This document shows, piece after piece, positions 19,400 to 23,708 of a stretch of DNA of 34,983 bases. The stretch is from Candidatus Thorarchaeota archaeon (GTDB lineage Archaea; Asgardarchaeota; Thorarchaeia; Thorarchaeales; Thorarchaeaceae): the NCBI GenBank assembly GCA_004524565.1, contig SDNZ01000011.1:1-34983 (forward strand). Reading direction: 5' to 3'. Made by a program: the position numbers and the translations under genes. How positions within the stretch are numbered: the first letter of the stretch is position 1; each line of letters opens with the position of its first letter. The notes below the pieces were generated by a model, which saw nothing but the letters and a program-made list of their open reading frames with translations, had not been told where the DNA came from and did not search any database.

Positions 19400-19517
19400 G
19401 CGGAGGTTGCCCAGCCAGGTTAAAGGCGCTAGGTTGAGGGCCTAGATTTTGTGGTGTTTCACCACGGAAAGGCTATCTCGTAGGAGTTCGCGAGTTCAAA
19501 TCTCGCCCTCCGCACCA
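19400..19517 (+). tRNA. tRNA-Leu (anticodon GAG) with ~29 nt insertion/intron in the variable region; CCA encoded
   Basis: Acceptor GCGGAGG/CCTCCGC, anticodon arm CTAGG-TTGAGGG-CCTAG, V-arm CTC-GTAG-GAG, T-arm GCGAG-TTCAAAT-CTCGC, A + CCA; extra 19447-19475 with GTGGTG-TTT-CACCAC hairpin. Confidence 0.85.
19487..19517 (+). repeat. R0: 3' end of tRNA-Leu, reference copy of the repeat
   Basis: TTCGCGAGTTCAAATCTCGCCCTCCGCACCA. Confidence 0.95.
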
Positions 19518-19545
19518 TTATCGTTCTTCTTTGAAATAATCTCAT

Positions 19546-20214
19546 TTAGAAAATATCATTGGTTTTCTTTGCTCCAACTATACCTGCAGGGAGAGATGAT
19601 ATTCCCAATAGATGAATACATTTTCCAAGTATATAAAATCGACAATCAAAACCACCATGGAAACGGAAATTAGCAAATGTTTCATAAATTGAATATTCGT
19701 TGTTAGCAATTATGTAATATGACCTCTCGACAGAGCGCCATCCTGAATAGTTCTCTTTTTGTTCACCAACCAAAAACTCGAATAAATATCTCCCTGTGAG
19801 ATTATCAAAAGATTCAGAAATTAGAGCCGAAGCTTCTCGAACGGTAGAAAATATATTTTGAAGGAATGGAAAAATAGGCTTAGTCCTATGAGCTAGCACA
19901 CCAGATTCTACTTCGAGAAAACATTTACTTATGCTAGCTAGTTCACCCTCACCTCCACCCATTTTTGACATTAAATTCACAATTGTAAATTTATTATCCA
20001 ATAGAGGCGTTTCATCAAGAATTGATATTTCCTTTTCAATATCAAACCTTATTCTATCTTTGAATTCTGCGTTATCTATACAATCGTCTTTCATGACTAG
20101 ATTGATTGCTTCGTCTTTGGTTCTTGAAAGAATCCATCCTTCATAGATGAGATTTGAATTGTCCGCGTCTGCTGGATCTGAAATACAGACTCTATAGATT
20201 TTTCGAGAATTCAA
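19546..20214 (-). CDS. Hypothetical protein, cassette 1
   Basis: 222 aa ORF, no family recognised; lies between R0 and R1. Confidence 0.65.
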   Translation of the reverse strand: MNSRKIYRVCISDPADADNSNLIYEGWILSRTKDEAINLVMKDDCIDNAEFKDRIRFDIEKEISILDETPLLDNKFTIVNLMSKMGGGEGELASISKCFLEVESGVLAHRTKPIFPFLQNIFSTVREASALISESFDNLTGRYLFEFLVGEQKENYSGWRSVERSYYIIANNEYSIYETFANFRFHGGFDCRFYILGKCIHLLGISSLPAGIVGAKKTNDIF

Positions 20215-20300
20215 ACAATCACTCCTCCTTTGTGCGATGTTGATTCCGTTGAAAAGGATAATAATTCTCCTAGTCGATATAAATAAAATTCAATAAATAA

Positions 20301-20331
20301 TTCGCGAGTTCAAATCTCGCCCTCCACACCA
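20301..20331 (+). repeat. R1: tRNA-Leu 3' remnant
   Basis: TTCGCGAGTTCAAATCTCGCCCTCCACACCA, 30/31 identical to R0. Confidence 0.95.
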
Positions 20332-20807
20332 TTTCTTCTATCTAATGACTTCTCAAGCCATACATGATAACCCCATGGATTTTCATCCTTCTGAAAGACA
20401 GAATACCCATGTTTCTTATAGAAATTAATTGCCCACTTTGCTTCACTATCTGTTTCAAGCTGGATACTTTTGTAGTCGAGGGTTTTTGCTTTCGTCTCAA
20501 GATATTCCATTAGTGAAGATCCAATCCCCATTCTCTGATAATTGTCTTCAACATGCATCAATGGAATCCAAGCTGTATTTTCATCTCTTGAGCTAAATGA
20601 CCCTACAGCAATGATTTGACCTTCTCTTCTTATAACAAAGAAATCCATGAATGTCGCCATCTGGTTGAACTGTTTCTGTGATAGAAATGGTTCTTTGTAG
20701 TATTCTTTTGGTATGATTTTGATAAACCACTCAGCAACCACTTTGTTAACGAGAGAAAGAATCTCGGACAAATCAGAGTCTACTGCAGGTTCGATTTCGA
20801 TTGCCAC
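20310..20807 (-). CDS. GNAT-family N-acetyltransferase, cassette 2
   Basis: AWIPLMHVEDNYQRMGIGSSLMEYLETKAKTLDYKSIQLETDSEAKWAINFYKKHGY. Confidence 0.9.
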   Translation of the reverse strand: MAIEIEPAVDSDLSEILSLVNKVVAEWFIKIIPKEYYKEPFLSQKQFNQMATFMDFFVIRREGQIIAVGSFSSRDENTAWIPLMHVEDNYQRMGIGSSLMEYLETKAKTLDYKSIQLETDSEAKWAINFYKKHGYSVFQKDENPWGYHVWLEKSLDRRNGVEGEI

Positions 20808-20852
20808 TATATTTCAATCTTGGAGATACATCAACTTGAATAAGAATTCTTT

Positions 20853-20866
20853 CACCCTCCGCACCA
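20853..20866 (+). repeat. R2: short tRNA-Leu 3' remnant
   Basis: CACCCTCCGCACCA, 13/14 identical to the tRNA-Leu 3' terminus. Confidence 0.7.
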
Positions 20867-20871
20867 CTTAT

Positions 20872-21330
20872 TCATTCTAATACGATTGGTTCCATCCTAA
20901 ATTTTCTCATCCGCCCATCAATTTTCGAACCAAATGGAGCCATAAATCTCTGAATGGATGTAAATATCTCTTCAGGAACCTCTAATGCAGCCTCAATGCA
21001 CTGAGTGAGATCATCCTTTGAGAGGTGTTGGGTCAGGGGACAATGAACTAGAAAATGTTCCTCACCATCTGTTGAGAAGATGGGGTATTTTTGGCATAGT
21101 AATGGACGTATGTGATAAATTTCGCAGGTGGAATCTTTGAGATAAGGACAGACCAACTCCTTTCCAAAATCAGTAACATAGCAGTTCTCTGTAATTTCGA
21201 TGAACTGGTTCGGATATCCGGCCGCAATAATTCGGTCTACTTCTGACTTTGTAGCAAGAGTGCCTCCTAATTTGCAACAGTATCCACCACATCTTTTGCA
21301 AATGTTCGAGTGATTGTTATCTACCATCAA
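20872..21330 (-). CDS. YkgJ-type Cys-rich zinc/iron-chelating protein, cassette 3
   Basis: CKRCGGYCCKLGG...CPYLKDSTCEIYHIRPLLCQKYPIF. Confidence 0.85.
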   Translation of the reverse strand: MMVDNNHSNICKRCGGYCCKLGGTLATKSEVDRIIAAGYPNQFIEITENCYVTDFGKELVCPYLKDSTCEIYHIRPLLCQKYPIFSTDGEEHFLVHCPLTQHLSKDDLTQCIEAALEVPEEIFTSIQRFMAPFGSKIDGRMRKFRMEPIVLE

Positions 21331-21356
21331 ATAATCACAATTGTCGTATTCCTATA

Positions 21357-21378
21357 TCAAATCTCGCTCTCTGCATCA
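21357..21378 (+). repeat. R3: tRNA-Leu 3' remnant
   Basis: TCAAATCTCGCTCTCTGCATCA vs TCAAATCTCGCCCTCCGCACCA: 19/22, all differences C-to-T. Confidence 0.85.
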
Positions 21379-21447
21379 CTCATTCTTCTAATACTATGTG
21401 AGAAGATCTTGGTTGATTAAATCAAAGGGCATCAAAAAGAGAATTTT

Positions 21448-21473
21448 GTGAGCAATCAATAACGATTACTCAC
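21448..21473. terminator. Hairpin 3' of the OB-fold gene (copy 1)
   Basis: GTGAGCAATC/GATTACTCAC; counterpart at 22812-22836 partly covaries. Confidence 0.5.
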
Positions 21474-21518
21474 AATCAAACAGCTAATGCTGTGTTAGAT
21501 TATTTCTAGGATAAAGAT

Positions 21519-22091
21519 CTAGTATCTACGACGTCTGTCGCCGCCTCCGCCGCCACCTCGGCTGCCACCACCGTAGCCACCGCCGCTGCTTCTGCCGCCA
21601 CCGCCATATCCACCGCCACTGCTGCGACCACCGTAGCCGCCGCCGCCGCCACCTCGGCCGCCACCACCGTAGCCACCACCACCGCCACCACTGTAGCTTC
21701 TACGGGGGCGGTCGTCTTCGTGCTCTTCGGCAGACATATCTATAGATTCGTTGATTTCTTCAATAGCTTCTTCAGCTGCATCGAGCTTGCCGTACCTACC
21801 AACATTCAAACGCAGGTTTCCGCGAAAGAGTCCTGTGTATCCATTAGTTAGATTGTAGGTTGAACCTTCTTCAACTGCATCGATAGTATCATCCCATAGT
21901 GGAACCTGTACGATTCCGCTAGCATCACCAACAGTGATATCACAGACACGGTGGGAGGTTCCATCTTTTCTAGACTCGATTTCACGCTGTTCACCTATGC
22001 TGATCACCTTGAAAGAAATGGTGACGTTCTTCATTCGTGGCTTTAGTTCTGCCACAGTAGCCTCAATTGGCTCACGTTCTTCATAACCCAT
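21519..22091 (-). CDS. OB-fold single-stranded nucleic-acid-binding protein with Gly/Arg-rich tail, copy 1 (cassette 4)
   Basis: RPA/SSB-like OB core VCDITVGDASGIVQVPLWDDTIDAVEEGSTYNLTNGYTGLFRGNLRLNVGRYGKL; tail of GGYGGGGRGG repeats. Confidence 0.9.
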   Translation of the reverse strand: MGYEEREPIEATVAELKPRMKNVTISFKVISIGEQREIESRKDGTSHRVCDITVGDASGIVQVPLWDDTIDAVEEGSTYNLTNGYTGLFRGNLRLNVGRYGKLDAAEEAIEEINESIDMSAEEHEDDRPRRSYSGGGGGGYGGGGRGGGGGGYGGRSSGGGYGGGGRSSGGGYGGGSRGGGGGGDRRRRY

Positions 22092-22284
22092 TGTTATTCA
22101 CTCGCTTAATGCGATTTATGCAAGTCGTCAAAACTAGTGTATCATTCTGTGAAATTTACGATGCTGAAAAAATAACTCTCGATAATTCCTGCGATAGAAA
22201 ACTCTTCTCGTGTACCTGCAAGGAGATTTTCAGAATGGATGCTTAAGTACTTGTATACAGGGTCTATTTTCACGAAAGTTGGAA

Positions 22285-22305
22285 CAAATCTCGCCCAACG
22301 CACAA
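22285..22305 (+). repeat. R4: tRNA-Leu 3' remnant
   Basis: CAAATCTCGCCCAACGCACAA vs CAAATCTCGCCCTCCGCACCA: 18/21. Confidence 0.8.
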
Positions 22306-22332
22306 TTTATTCTAGTTCGAGGTACATGTAAT

Positions 22333-22677
22333 CTATTCAGTTTCATATCTTGCTGGCTCAGCGAAGAAATCCATTATTTTACAGAAAGTCTTGAACTCCG
22401 CTGAGTGAACAACTCCTTCAGGTATATAGTATGAGTCACCTCTCTTGTAGAGGTTCGTTTTATCACCAATAGTCAGTAGCATCTCACCTTCGATTACAAA
22501 ACCATATTGTGCATTATGACTATGTGGGGGGACTGTTCCAATTGGTTCAATCTCAAAAAATGCGATTTGAAAGGCAACACCTTGTGCAATCCGTGCTTGC
22601 ACTCCTTGCATTGGAATCTTTGCTTTTGGCAATTCTTTGATACAATCTGGGTATTCCTCAACGTCCATTGATCTCAC
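22333..22677 (-). CDS. Cupin-domain protein, cassette 5
   Basis: GTVPPHSHNAQYGFVIEGEMLLTIGDKTNLYKRGDSYYIPEGVVHSAEF. Confidence 0.9.
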   Translation of the reverse strand: MRSMDVEEYPDCIKELPKAKIPMQGVQARIAQGVAFQIAFFEIEPIGTVPPHSHNAQYGFVIEGEMLLTIGDKTNLYKRGDSYYIPEGVVHSAEFKTFCKIMDFFAEPARYETE

Positions 22678-22731
22678 AAGTGAAGGTTCGAGAAATGGGA
22701 TATTAATATTTCATAGCTTATTCTAAAGGGT

Positions 22732-22751
22732 TAATCCATCTCTCAACACCA
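22732..22751 (+). repeat. R5: strongly degenerate tRNA-Leu 3' remnant
   Basis: TAATCCATCTCTCAACACCA, about 13/20 to tRNA-Leu 3' end; in the expected inter-gene position. Confidence 0.4.
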
Positions 22752-22811
22752 CTTTTCTTATTGTTTCTTAAGATAGTTAATTTGGCTTAGAGATTTGAAA
22801 AAGAAGAATTT

Positions 22812-22836
22812 GTGAGCGATCATTAAAACCGCCCAC
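22812..22836. terminator. Hairpin 3' of the OB-fold gene (copy 2)
   Basis: GTGAGCG/CGCCCAC, counterpart of 21448-21473. Confidence 0.45.
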
Positions 22837-22881
22837 AGTTGTACATCAAATGCTGTATTAGATTAATTCTAGAATTATGGT

Positions 22882-23475
22882 CTAGTATCTACGACGTCTG
22901 TCGCCGCCACCGCCGCCACGGTCTCTACCGCCGCCACCGTAACCACCGCCACCGCCGCCACGGTCTCTACCGCCATAGCCACCGCCACCACTTCGGCCAC
23001 CACCGCCGTAACCGCCGCCACCTCGGCCGCCGCCACCGCCATAGCCTCCGCCGCCACGACCACCACCGCCTCCACCGTAGCTTCTACGGGGGCGATCGTC
23101 TTCGTGCTCTTCAGCAGACATGTCTACTTCCATGTTGACATCTTCGATTGCTTCATCAGCTACATCGAGTTTGCCGTACCTACCTACGTTCAAACGCAGG
23201 TTTCCGCGAAAGAGACCTGTGTATCCGTTTGTAAGATTGTAAGTGGAACCTTCTTCAACTGCGTCAATAGTGTCATCCCACAGTGGAACCTGTACGATTC
23301 CGCTAGCATCACCAACAGTGATATCACAGACACGGTGGGAACCGCCATCCCGTCGGGACTCGATTTCACGCTGTTCACCTATGCTGATCACCTTGAAAGA
23401 AATGGTGACGTTCTTCATTCGTGGCTTTAGTTCTGCCACAGTAGCCTCAATTGGCTCACGTTCTTCATAACCCAT
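22882..23475 (-). CDS. OB-fold protein with Gly/Arg-rich tail, copy 2
   Basis: Near-identical OB domain to 21519-22091; longer RGG/DRGGGG tail. Confidence 0.9.
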   Translation of the reverse strand: MGYEEREPIEATVAELKPRMKNVTISFKVISIGEQREIESRRDGGSHRVCDITVGDASGIVQVPLWDDTIDAVEEGSTYNLTNGYTGLFRGNLRLNVGRYGKLDVADEAIEDVNMEVDMSAEEHEDDRPRRSYGGGGGGRGGGGYGGGGGRGGGGYGGGGRSGGGGYGGRDRGGGGGGYGGGGRDRGGGGGDRRRRY

Positions 23476-23708
23476 TGTTATTCACTCGCTTAATGCGATT
23501 ATGCAAGTCGTCAAAACTAGTGTGTCCTTCTGTCAAATTTGCGATGTTGAAAAAAATTCTCTCGACAATTCCGATGATAGAAAACGCTTTCCGCTTTTCG
23601 TGTACCTGCAAATAGCTTTTCAAAAAGAGTGCTTAAGAACTTGTGCACAGGGATGTCTGTCACCTAGAACATTAATTACTGCATCAATATCAAATAGCAA
23701 TATGAAGT

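Follow-up and report, generated by a model that had tools for sequence, protein, structure and literature searches.

Downstream of a tRNA-Leu(GAG) gene in a Thorarchaeota genome, we found an array of five single-gene units separated by copies of the 3' end of that tRNA. The array occupies positions 19400 to 22751 of a 34,983-nucleotide stretch of DNA (the window), which is contig C61 (SDNZ01000011.1) of the 3.13-Mb, 86% complete genome of Candidatus Thorarchaeota archaeon (GCA_004524565.1). A thiamine-phosphate-kinase-like protein encoded in the window shares 80% identity with one from 'Candidatus Thorarchaeota archaeon isolate C14-20', which places the genome among the Asgard archaea. Comparison of genomes shows the sites, the single-gene intervals, serial insertion, sites that are empty in one genome and occupied in another, and homologous units at more than one tRNA gene. 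A history of one-by-one insertion at the tRNA is well supported by these comparisons and close to certain, and we consider it probable that the array reflects integron-like, tRNA-anchored capture of single-gene units by a recombinase acting in trans. Counts across genomes are drawn from tRNA-centered stretches in one family of 47 genomes, labeled by number (G000 is the genome of the window). An earlier note, made from the sequence of the window, had described the array at this one place; that description stands, and the window proves to be one example of a family-wide phenomenon.

A tRNA gene anchors an array of single-gene units

The anchor is an intron-containing tRNA-Leu(GAG) gene on the plus strand at 19400-19517, which ARAGORN reported when introns were allowed and missed without that option; the RF00005 match spans 19400-19514. 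This gene would play an attI-like part. Copies of its 3' end recur on the same strand at 20301-20331 (site 1, 30/31 positions identical), 21357-21378 (site 3, 19/22), and 22284-22305 (site 4, 18/22, with a 22/22 ortholog in G010). The earlier note had reported these three copies, starting the last at 22285, and a pattern search with shuffled controls confirmed them: a 21-nucleotide pattern with up to three mismatches matched only the tRNA and sites 1, 3, and 4 in the 35 kb (n = 4), compared to 0.00 matches expected from shuffles. The best plus-strand 22-mers in 19518-22900 score 21, 19, 18, and 15, and the best on the minus strand scores 12.

Two weaker sites lie on the plus strand as well. 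The note's short copy at 20853-20866 is genuine, as it aligns with a genuine tRNA-Leu end in the relative G012; because its flank also aligns with that true tRNA end, we treat it as a decayed full-length site (site 2, approximately 20845-20866, 13/14 at the 3' end and 15/22 overall). The weak copy that the note placed at 22732-22751 (site 5, 22730-22751, counted by hand as 13/22) does not reach significance by itself. We accept it because of its syntenic position only: on the right of the same cupin gene, a 17/22 site is present in G006.

Exactly one open reading frame (ORF), always on the minus strand, lies in each of the five intervals, as the note had stated. The newest unit (19518-20300) holds a gene for a 222-amino-acid protein without a Pfam match (cargo 1, 19546-20214), which was present in two of the 47 family genomes, that of the window and G009, both times within a tRNA-Leu(GAG) array. 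Cargo 2 (20310-20807) encodes a 165-amino-acid GNAT acetyltransferase (Pfam Acetyltransf_1, E = 6.5e-18), to which cassettes in G002 and G011 are homologous; the stop codon of this gene and the C-terminal residues of its product (..GVEGEI) come from the antisense of site 1. For some minus-strand cargos, at 20310-20331 in the window and at loci L216, L044, and L050, the antisense of a tRNA 3' end supplies the final codons and the stop, which gives their products the ending ..G(A/V)EGEI or a variant of it. Cargo 3 (20872-21330) is a CxxCxxCC (YkgJ-like) protein of 152 amino acids in a 490-bp cassette (PF03692, E = 5.6e-9), cargo 4 (21519-22091) is an Ssb-like oligonucleotide-binding (OB)-fold protein of 190 amino acids with its own 5' flank (PF21473, E = 2.6e-12), and cargo 5 (22333-22677) is a cupin of 114 amino acids (Pfam Cupin_2, E = 1.9e-12) that is also a cassette in G006.

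A second Ssb-like OB-fold gene lies directly past the array on the minus strand (22882-23475). Cargo 4 is a near-copy of this gene (91% over 300 nucleotides), which corrects the earlier account of the cargos while leaving the OB-fold assignment in place. The near-identical copies include upstream flanks and span 21434-22262 in the array and 22798-23652 beyond it, the array copy carrying approximately 170 bp 5' of the start codon.

Related genomes record insertion one unit at a time

In G012, a CxxCxxCC (YkgJ) cassette abuts tRNA-Leu, and the homologous junction is internal in G013, G006, and the window, where two other units of differing content lie ahead of it. Alignments of this junction show identity beginning at TCAAATCTCG, with unrelated left flanks. 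One and the same junction is thus formed by the tRNA in G012 and by an internal remnant in the other three, which supports the serial insertion of one-gene units that the earlier note had proposed. Gene order is tRNA-GNAT-CxxCxxCC in G002 and tRNA-222aa-GNAT-CxxCxxCC in the window, and the 222-amino-acid unit, first in the window's array, is third in that of G009.

The surroundings of the tRNA-Leu(GAG) locus are conserved: ThiL and tRNA-Thr lie on one side, and genes for a Gfo/Idh oxidoreductase and a MiaB-like protein lie on the opposite side. Only 365 bp separate the tRNA from the conserved Gfo/Idh gene in G024; within the genus of the window, the same gap holds different cassettes in each genome. 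The tRNA-Leu(TAG) site is empty in the window's genome and carries a 2.2-kb insert in G013, where the right flank equals that of the empty site from the tRNA end onward. Individual units keep their length, 488 to 494 bp for the YkgJ unit in five genomes and 1090 and 1091 bp for a hydrolase unit in two genera.

The note's further proposal, that the oldest units lie farthest from the tRNA, holds in the window though not in every genome: in G006, some deeper sites are more perfect than the first. Neighbors to the right of the YkgJ cassette also differ between genomes, and the two observations suggest that internal sites may be used or refreshed as well. One internal site is 22/22 in three genomes compared to 69 to 83% identity in the adjoining 30 nucleotides of cassette, a hint that such sites could stay in use or be refreshed.

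Homologous units also occur at different tRNA genes. One pair of proteins, of 240 and 225 amino acids and 73% identical, links the G006 array region at tRNA-Leu(GAG) with a G009 cassette at tRNA-Leu(TAG), and a unit encoding 162 or 160 amino acids is shared by the Leu(GAG) locus of G013 and the Leu(CAG) locus of G009. A helix-turn-helix-containing protein occurs at tRNA-Thr in G013 and beside tRNA-Leu(GAG) in G007 (44% over 353 amino acids), and a PrcB_C-domain protein is found both beside the Leu(GAG) gene of G017 and in a G015 array of Leu type (63%). These pairs indirectly support excision and reinsertion of cassettes, which may take place through circular forms.

Many sites begin in the T-loop

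Among 42 sites compared at their left boundaries, the match to the tRNA often begins with the T-loop's first or second T and runs for 22 to 24 nucleotides to CCA. Because identity starts at T-loop base 1 or 2 at many sites, the crossover region probably lies in the T-loop (TTCAAAT, 19495-19501 on the plus strand of the window). Other sites begin in the variable arm or, in a few cases, in the T-stem, and the duplications range from 19 to 89 nucleotides. The 89-nucleotide remnant at locus L062 begins exactly at the anticodon stem. The T-loop and the anticodon stem/loop are the two symmetric places in tRNA genes that integrases use, and Williams is said to have described crossover in the T-loop and anticodon loop in 2002 as typical of tyrosine integrases. 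Past CCA, the sites carry the same pyrimidine-rich terminator tract as real tRNAs, and because they keep it we take the remnants to be former working tRNA ends. Reconstructed circle junctions are mostly not unusually folded.

Two loci depart from this anatomy. L062 (G021:C82, 4969-7576) is a 2.5-kb unit with a TnpB/Cas12f-like gene, and its remnant differs from the T-loop sites in its start at the anticodon stem. At L050 (G013:C94, 4358-4506), a tRNA-Leu(GAG) has an extra insertion of approximately 30 nucleotides, with a hairpin, inside the T-loop, exactly at the inferred crossover point; the insertion looks like an intron and might shield the site from further insertion.

Arrays are widespread in one Thorarchaeota family

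Our catalog holds 67 intervals (41 plus 26) from 17 genomes in at least four genera, with genomes and genera counted by hand. One ORF of at least 70 amino acids was found in 30 of the first 41 intervals; in this set, coding sequence fills a median of 87% of an interval, and the median unit with a single ORF is 840 bp long. Most units measure approximately 0.3 to 1.4 kb; a few intervals of 2 to 4 kb hold several genes. The tRNAs involved include Leu (GAG, CAA, CAG, and TAG), Thr, His, Ala, Glu, Gly, Cys, and Ser. Among the cargos are enzymes (hydrolase, GNAT, prephenate dehydratase, and octopine-dehydrogenase-like), permease, metal-binding, tetratricopeptide repeat, and JAB proteins, and many proteins without known function. 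In most arrays at tRNA-Leu, the leading gene is oriented against the tRNA, and plus-strand cargos are common at other tRNAs.

We searched the genome of the window, the closed genome of another genus (G043), and other relatives for copies of the 3' end of each tRNA (at least 18/22) in its own vicinity. The search covered 98 tRNAs and gave 36 copies: 31 downstream on the same strand, 5 upstream and inverted, and 0 elsewhere, with the five inverted copies confined to small rearranged contigs (two). An exact Leu-type motif gave 140-odd matches in 44 of the 47 genomes and 0 when reversed. Where copies of the Leu motif lie <5 kb apart, 26 are on the same strand and 1 on opposite strands, across 13 genomes (hand count of the match list). 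No tRNA-end remnants were found at the 54 tRNAs of two other Asgard families. A control with decoy tails yielded 7 decoy matches at 18/22 against 8 real ones and was confounded by adjacent arrays in the window's genome; the strand and side counts and the outgroup families were used in its place. Two observations that the earlier note had set against serial insertion were not made: the relatives compared do not show the identical gene order without the motif, and the motif, far from occurring genome-wide away from tRNA, is essentially limited to tRNA ends and clusters of same-strand copies.

Several loci deserve separate description. Inverted tRNA-end copies lie upstream of an intact tRNA-Leu on small contigs at L044 (G007:C48), L052 (G013:C123), and L060 (G015:C22), the result of either inversion between sites or assembly error. 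L060 also holds a separate tRNA 5' half, a TnpB-like gene, and an ORF of 1876 amino acids without a Pfam match. The five-interval array at L059 (G009:C124) includes an AbiV-HEPN protein and an OLD/GajA-like ATPase, which suggests that defense genes travel as cassettes. At L049 (G001:C7, 14041-14943), a protein of the arrestin/Vps26 fold lies directly 3' of tRNA-Leu(GAG), the usual place of a cassette, and no remnant was detected there. A tRNA-Ala-type 3' remnant of approximately 40 nucleotides at a contig start (G000:C120:146-188, L119) is probably a piece of another array split by assembly.

Proposed mechanism and the search for an enzyme

In the mechanism that we favor, a unit would consist of one gene, usually with its own upstream region, a copy of the tRNA 3' end from T-loop to CCA, and a pyrimidine-rich terminator. 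It would insert by recombination in the T-loop with the resident tRNA gene, supplying a new 3' end and terminator such that the tRNA remains intact, and the old 3' end and terminator would be displaced downstream as the remnant. Repeated insertion would build an array in which the units, followed away from the tRNA, run from youngest to oldest. Units would move as circular intermediates, and the catalyst would be a trans-acting site-specific recombinase, most likely a tyrosine recombinase, encoded on the chromosome in some lineages or else brought by plasmids or viruses outside the assemblies. We hold more tentatively, as a serious possibility, that Thorarchaeota have a platform dedicated to gene capture and separate from integrons, where the tRNA 3' end would be both docking and cassette site, tRNA integrity would act as a filter, and the trans-acting recombinase would shuffle cassettes between loci and species.

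The earlier note had seen no integrase in the array and had suggested a search for a tyrosine recombinase elsewhere in the genome. No recombinase was recognizable by Pfam or phmmer among the array-locus ORFs and cassette cargos examined; an apparent one in the G001 array, based on a single phmmer match, turned out to be the arrestin-like protein beside tRNA-Leu. One PF00589 gene, the only one in the window's genome, lies on another contig (G000:C101:18568-19041; L065 1306-2487). Its 393-amino-acid product has plausible catalytic residues, with YxxR in place of HxxR, is 85 to 86% identical in G005, G009, and G013, and is weakly XerA-like (39.5 bits compared to a cut-off of 220). We regard this protein as a candidate for the enzyme. 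SSV-type integrases (PF16795) were found in 0 of the 47 genomes. Cas1 is present in 11 of the 47 and in 1 of the 16 in the window's genus, and it is not among the cargos.

A number of results weigh against a trans-acting recombinase. PF00589 recombinases occur in only 18 of the 47 genomes, and they are absent from about half of those that bear arrays (G002, G003, G004, G006, G010, G011, G015, and G050 lack them). None of the 20 PF00589 regions inspected held a copy of a tRNA tail, the arrays showed neither a recombinase gene nor a circular form or excised state, and the tRNA-end motif was not found on IMG/VR contigs. Past the tRNA end, cassette ends yielded no shared arm motif, hairpin, or terminal motif, and the left arm of most sites lacks T-stem symmetry.

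Alternative explanations

Serial insertion might proceed without an enzyme if cassettes were exchanged by recombination between tRNA-end copies over 22 to 31 bp of homology and selection kept the events that spared the tRNA. Some archaea are thought to recombine over such short homology, no recombinase is constant among array-bearing genomes, the tRNA end is the only thing that cassettes share, and homologous units sit at tRNA-Leu genes with an identical 3' end. We nevertheless judge this unlikely, since many sites halt at the T-loop after 22 to 24 nucleotides and one exactly at the anticodon stem, and remnants are missing from the 54 outgroup tRNAs. Exchange over short homology is also silent on how a fresh gene first gains a tRNA end.

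The units could instead be leftovers of larger integrative elements, viruses or plasmids, that were trimmed by deletion to one gene. Ordinary archaeal elements do integrate at tRNA 3' ends and leave remnants, arrays of them are known (PMC6563490), and the few intervals of 2 to 4 kb with several genes would fit. Compact one-gene units of equal length in several genomes largely refute this explanation, and the 87% coding fraction, the intact 22/22 sites, and array loci without a recombinase match also speak against it; we find it very unlikely.

More improbable still is target-site duplication, in which an integrase of the transposase or Cas1 type would cut once in the T-loop and once behind CCA, approximately 22 bp apart. 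Many duplications do measure 22 to 24 nucleotides, and casposons can target tRNA genes (PMC6563490); yet duplication length at comparable sites is not fixed (19 to 89 nucleotides), Cas1 is missing from 15 of the 16 genomes of the genus, and the cassette ends have no terminal motif in common.

That the copies are not scars at all, being conserved elements such as 3'-processing or termination signals of the minus-strand genes, is scarcely credible: several copies adjoin stop codons, the GNAT stop codon lies inside a site, and an internal site is conserved above its flank, but the copies face most cargos from the opposite strand, occur beside plus-strand genes as well, agree with the tail of whichever tRNA is nearby (Leu, Thr, His, Ala, or Ser), and decay in some lineages, and the comparisons of empty and occupied sites refute this as a full explanation. 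Retro-insertion of mRNA, in view of genes that point back at the tRNA, was disfavored, as units include upstream regions and plus-strand genes occur.

Relation to known systems

Tycheposons and tRNA-site satellites, which Hackl et al. are said to have described in 2023, are reportedly cargo islands at tRNA 3' ends, some of them dependent on helpers. Tycheposons are also said to be larger multigene elements with tyrosine recombinases rather than arrays of one-gene cassettes. The arrays that we describe resemble integrons and clusters of attC sites lacking integron integrases (CALINs) in their mostly single-gene, promiscuous cassettes, in the sites between them, in the fixed anchor at which they grow by single-gene units, one at a time, and in an enzyme outside the cassettes. 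They differ in that anchor and sites are tRNA 3' ends, not attI and attC. The attC core (RYYYAAC...GTTRRRY) was found at 1 of 42 junctions compared to 0.8 in shuffles, and IntI was not found next to the arrays among the array-locus ORFs. Integrons reported as enriched in Asgard archaea are attC-based, and tRNA goes unmentioned in the text of that report (Ghaly et al. 2022, PMC9668308).

With archaeal tRNA-targeting elements (SSV/pNOB8-type and thaumarchaeal integrated mobile genetic elements), the units have in common insertion in the 3' part of the gene, a restored tRNA, and a downstream 3' remnant. Those elements are multigene and normally bring their own integrase, whereas the units here measure approximately 0.3 to 1.4 kb, hold one ordinary gene, and have no integrase of their own. 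Arrays of integrated multigene elements are known in Thaumarchaeota, with short att sites (median 17 bp; PMC6563490), and mobile elements near tRNA genes have been described in Heimdallarchaea (PMC8813620). Casposons may likewise insert in tRNA genes with target duplication, but they carry Cas1 and PolB, and the cassettes here are without Cas1. We found no published single-gene cassette arrays at tRNA ends in the literature searched, which was thin on subscription journals and preprints. Integration at tRNA ends and arrays of elements are thus known, and the single-gene cassette array at a tRNA end appears, from the literature searched, to be a new variant.

If the proposed capture of single-gene units is true, integron-like cassette capture can arise without IntI and attC. 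It would also bear on why archaeal tRNA genes have introns, given the apparent intron of the G013 tRNA-Leu at the inferred crossover point. Thorarchaeota are relatives of the ancestors of complex cells, and Asgard gene repertoires are unusually mixed. A site-marked tRNA array would be a record of the order of gene gain, offering both a mechanism and a relative clock for any Thorarchaeota genome.

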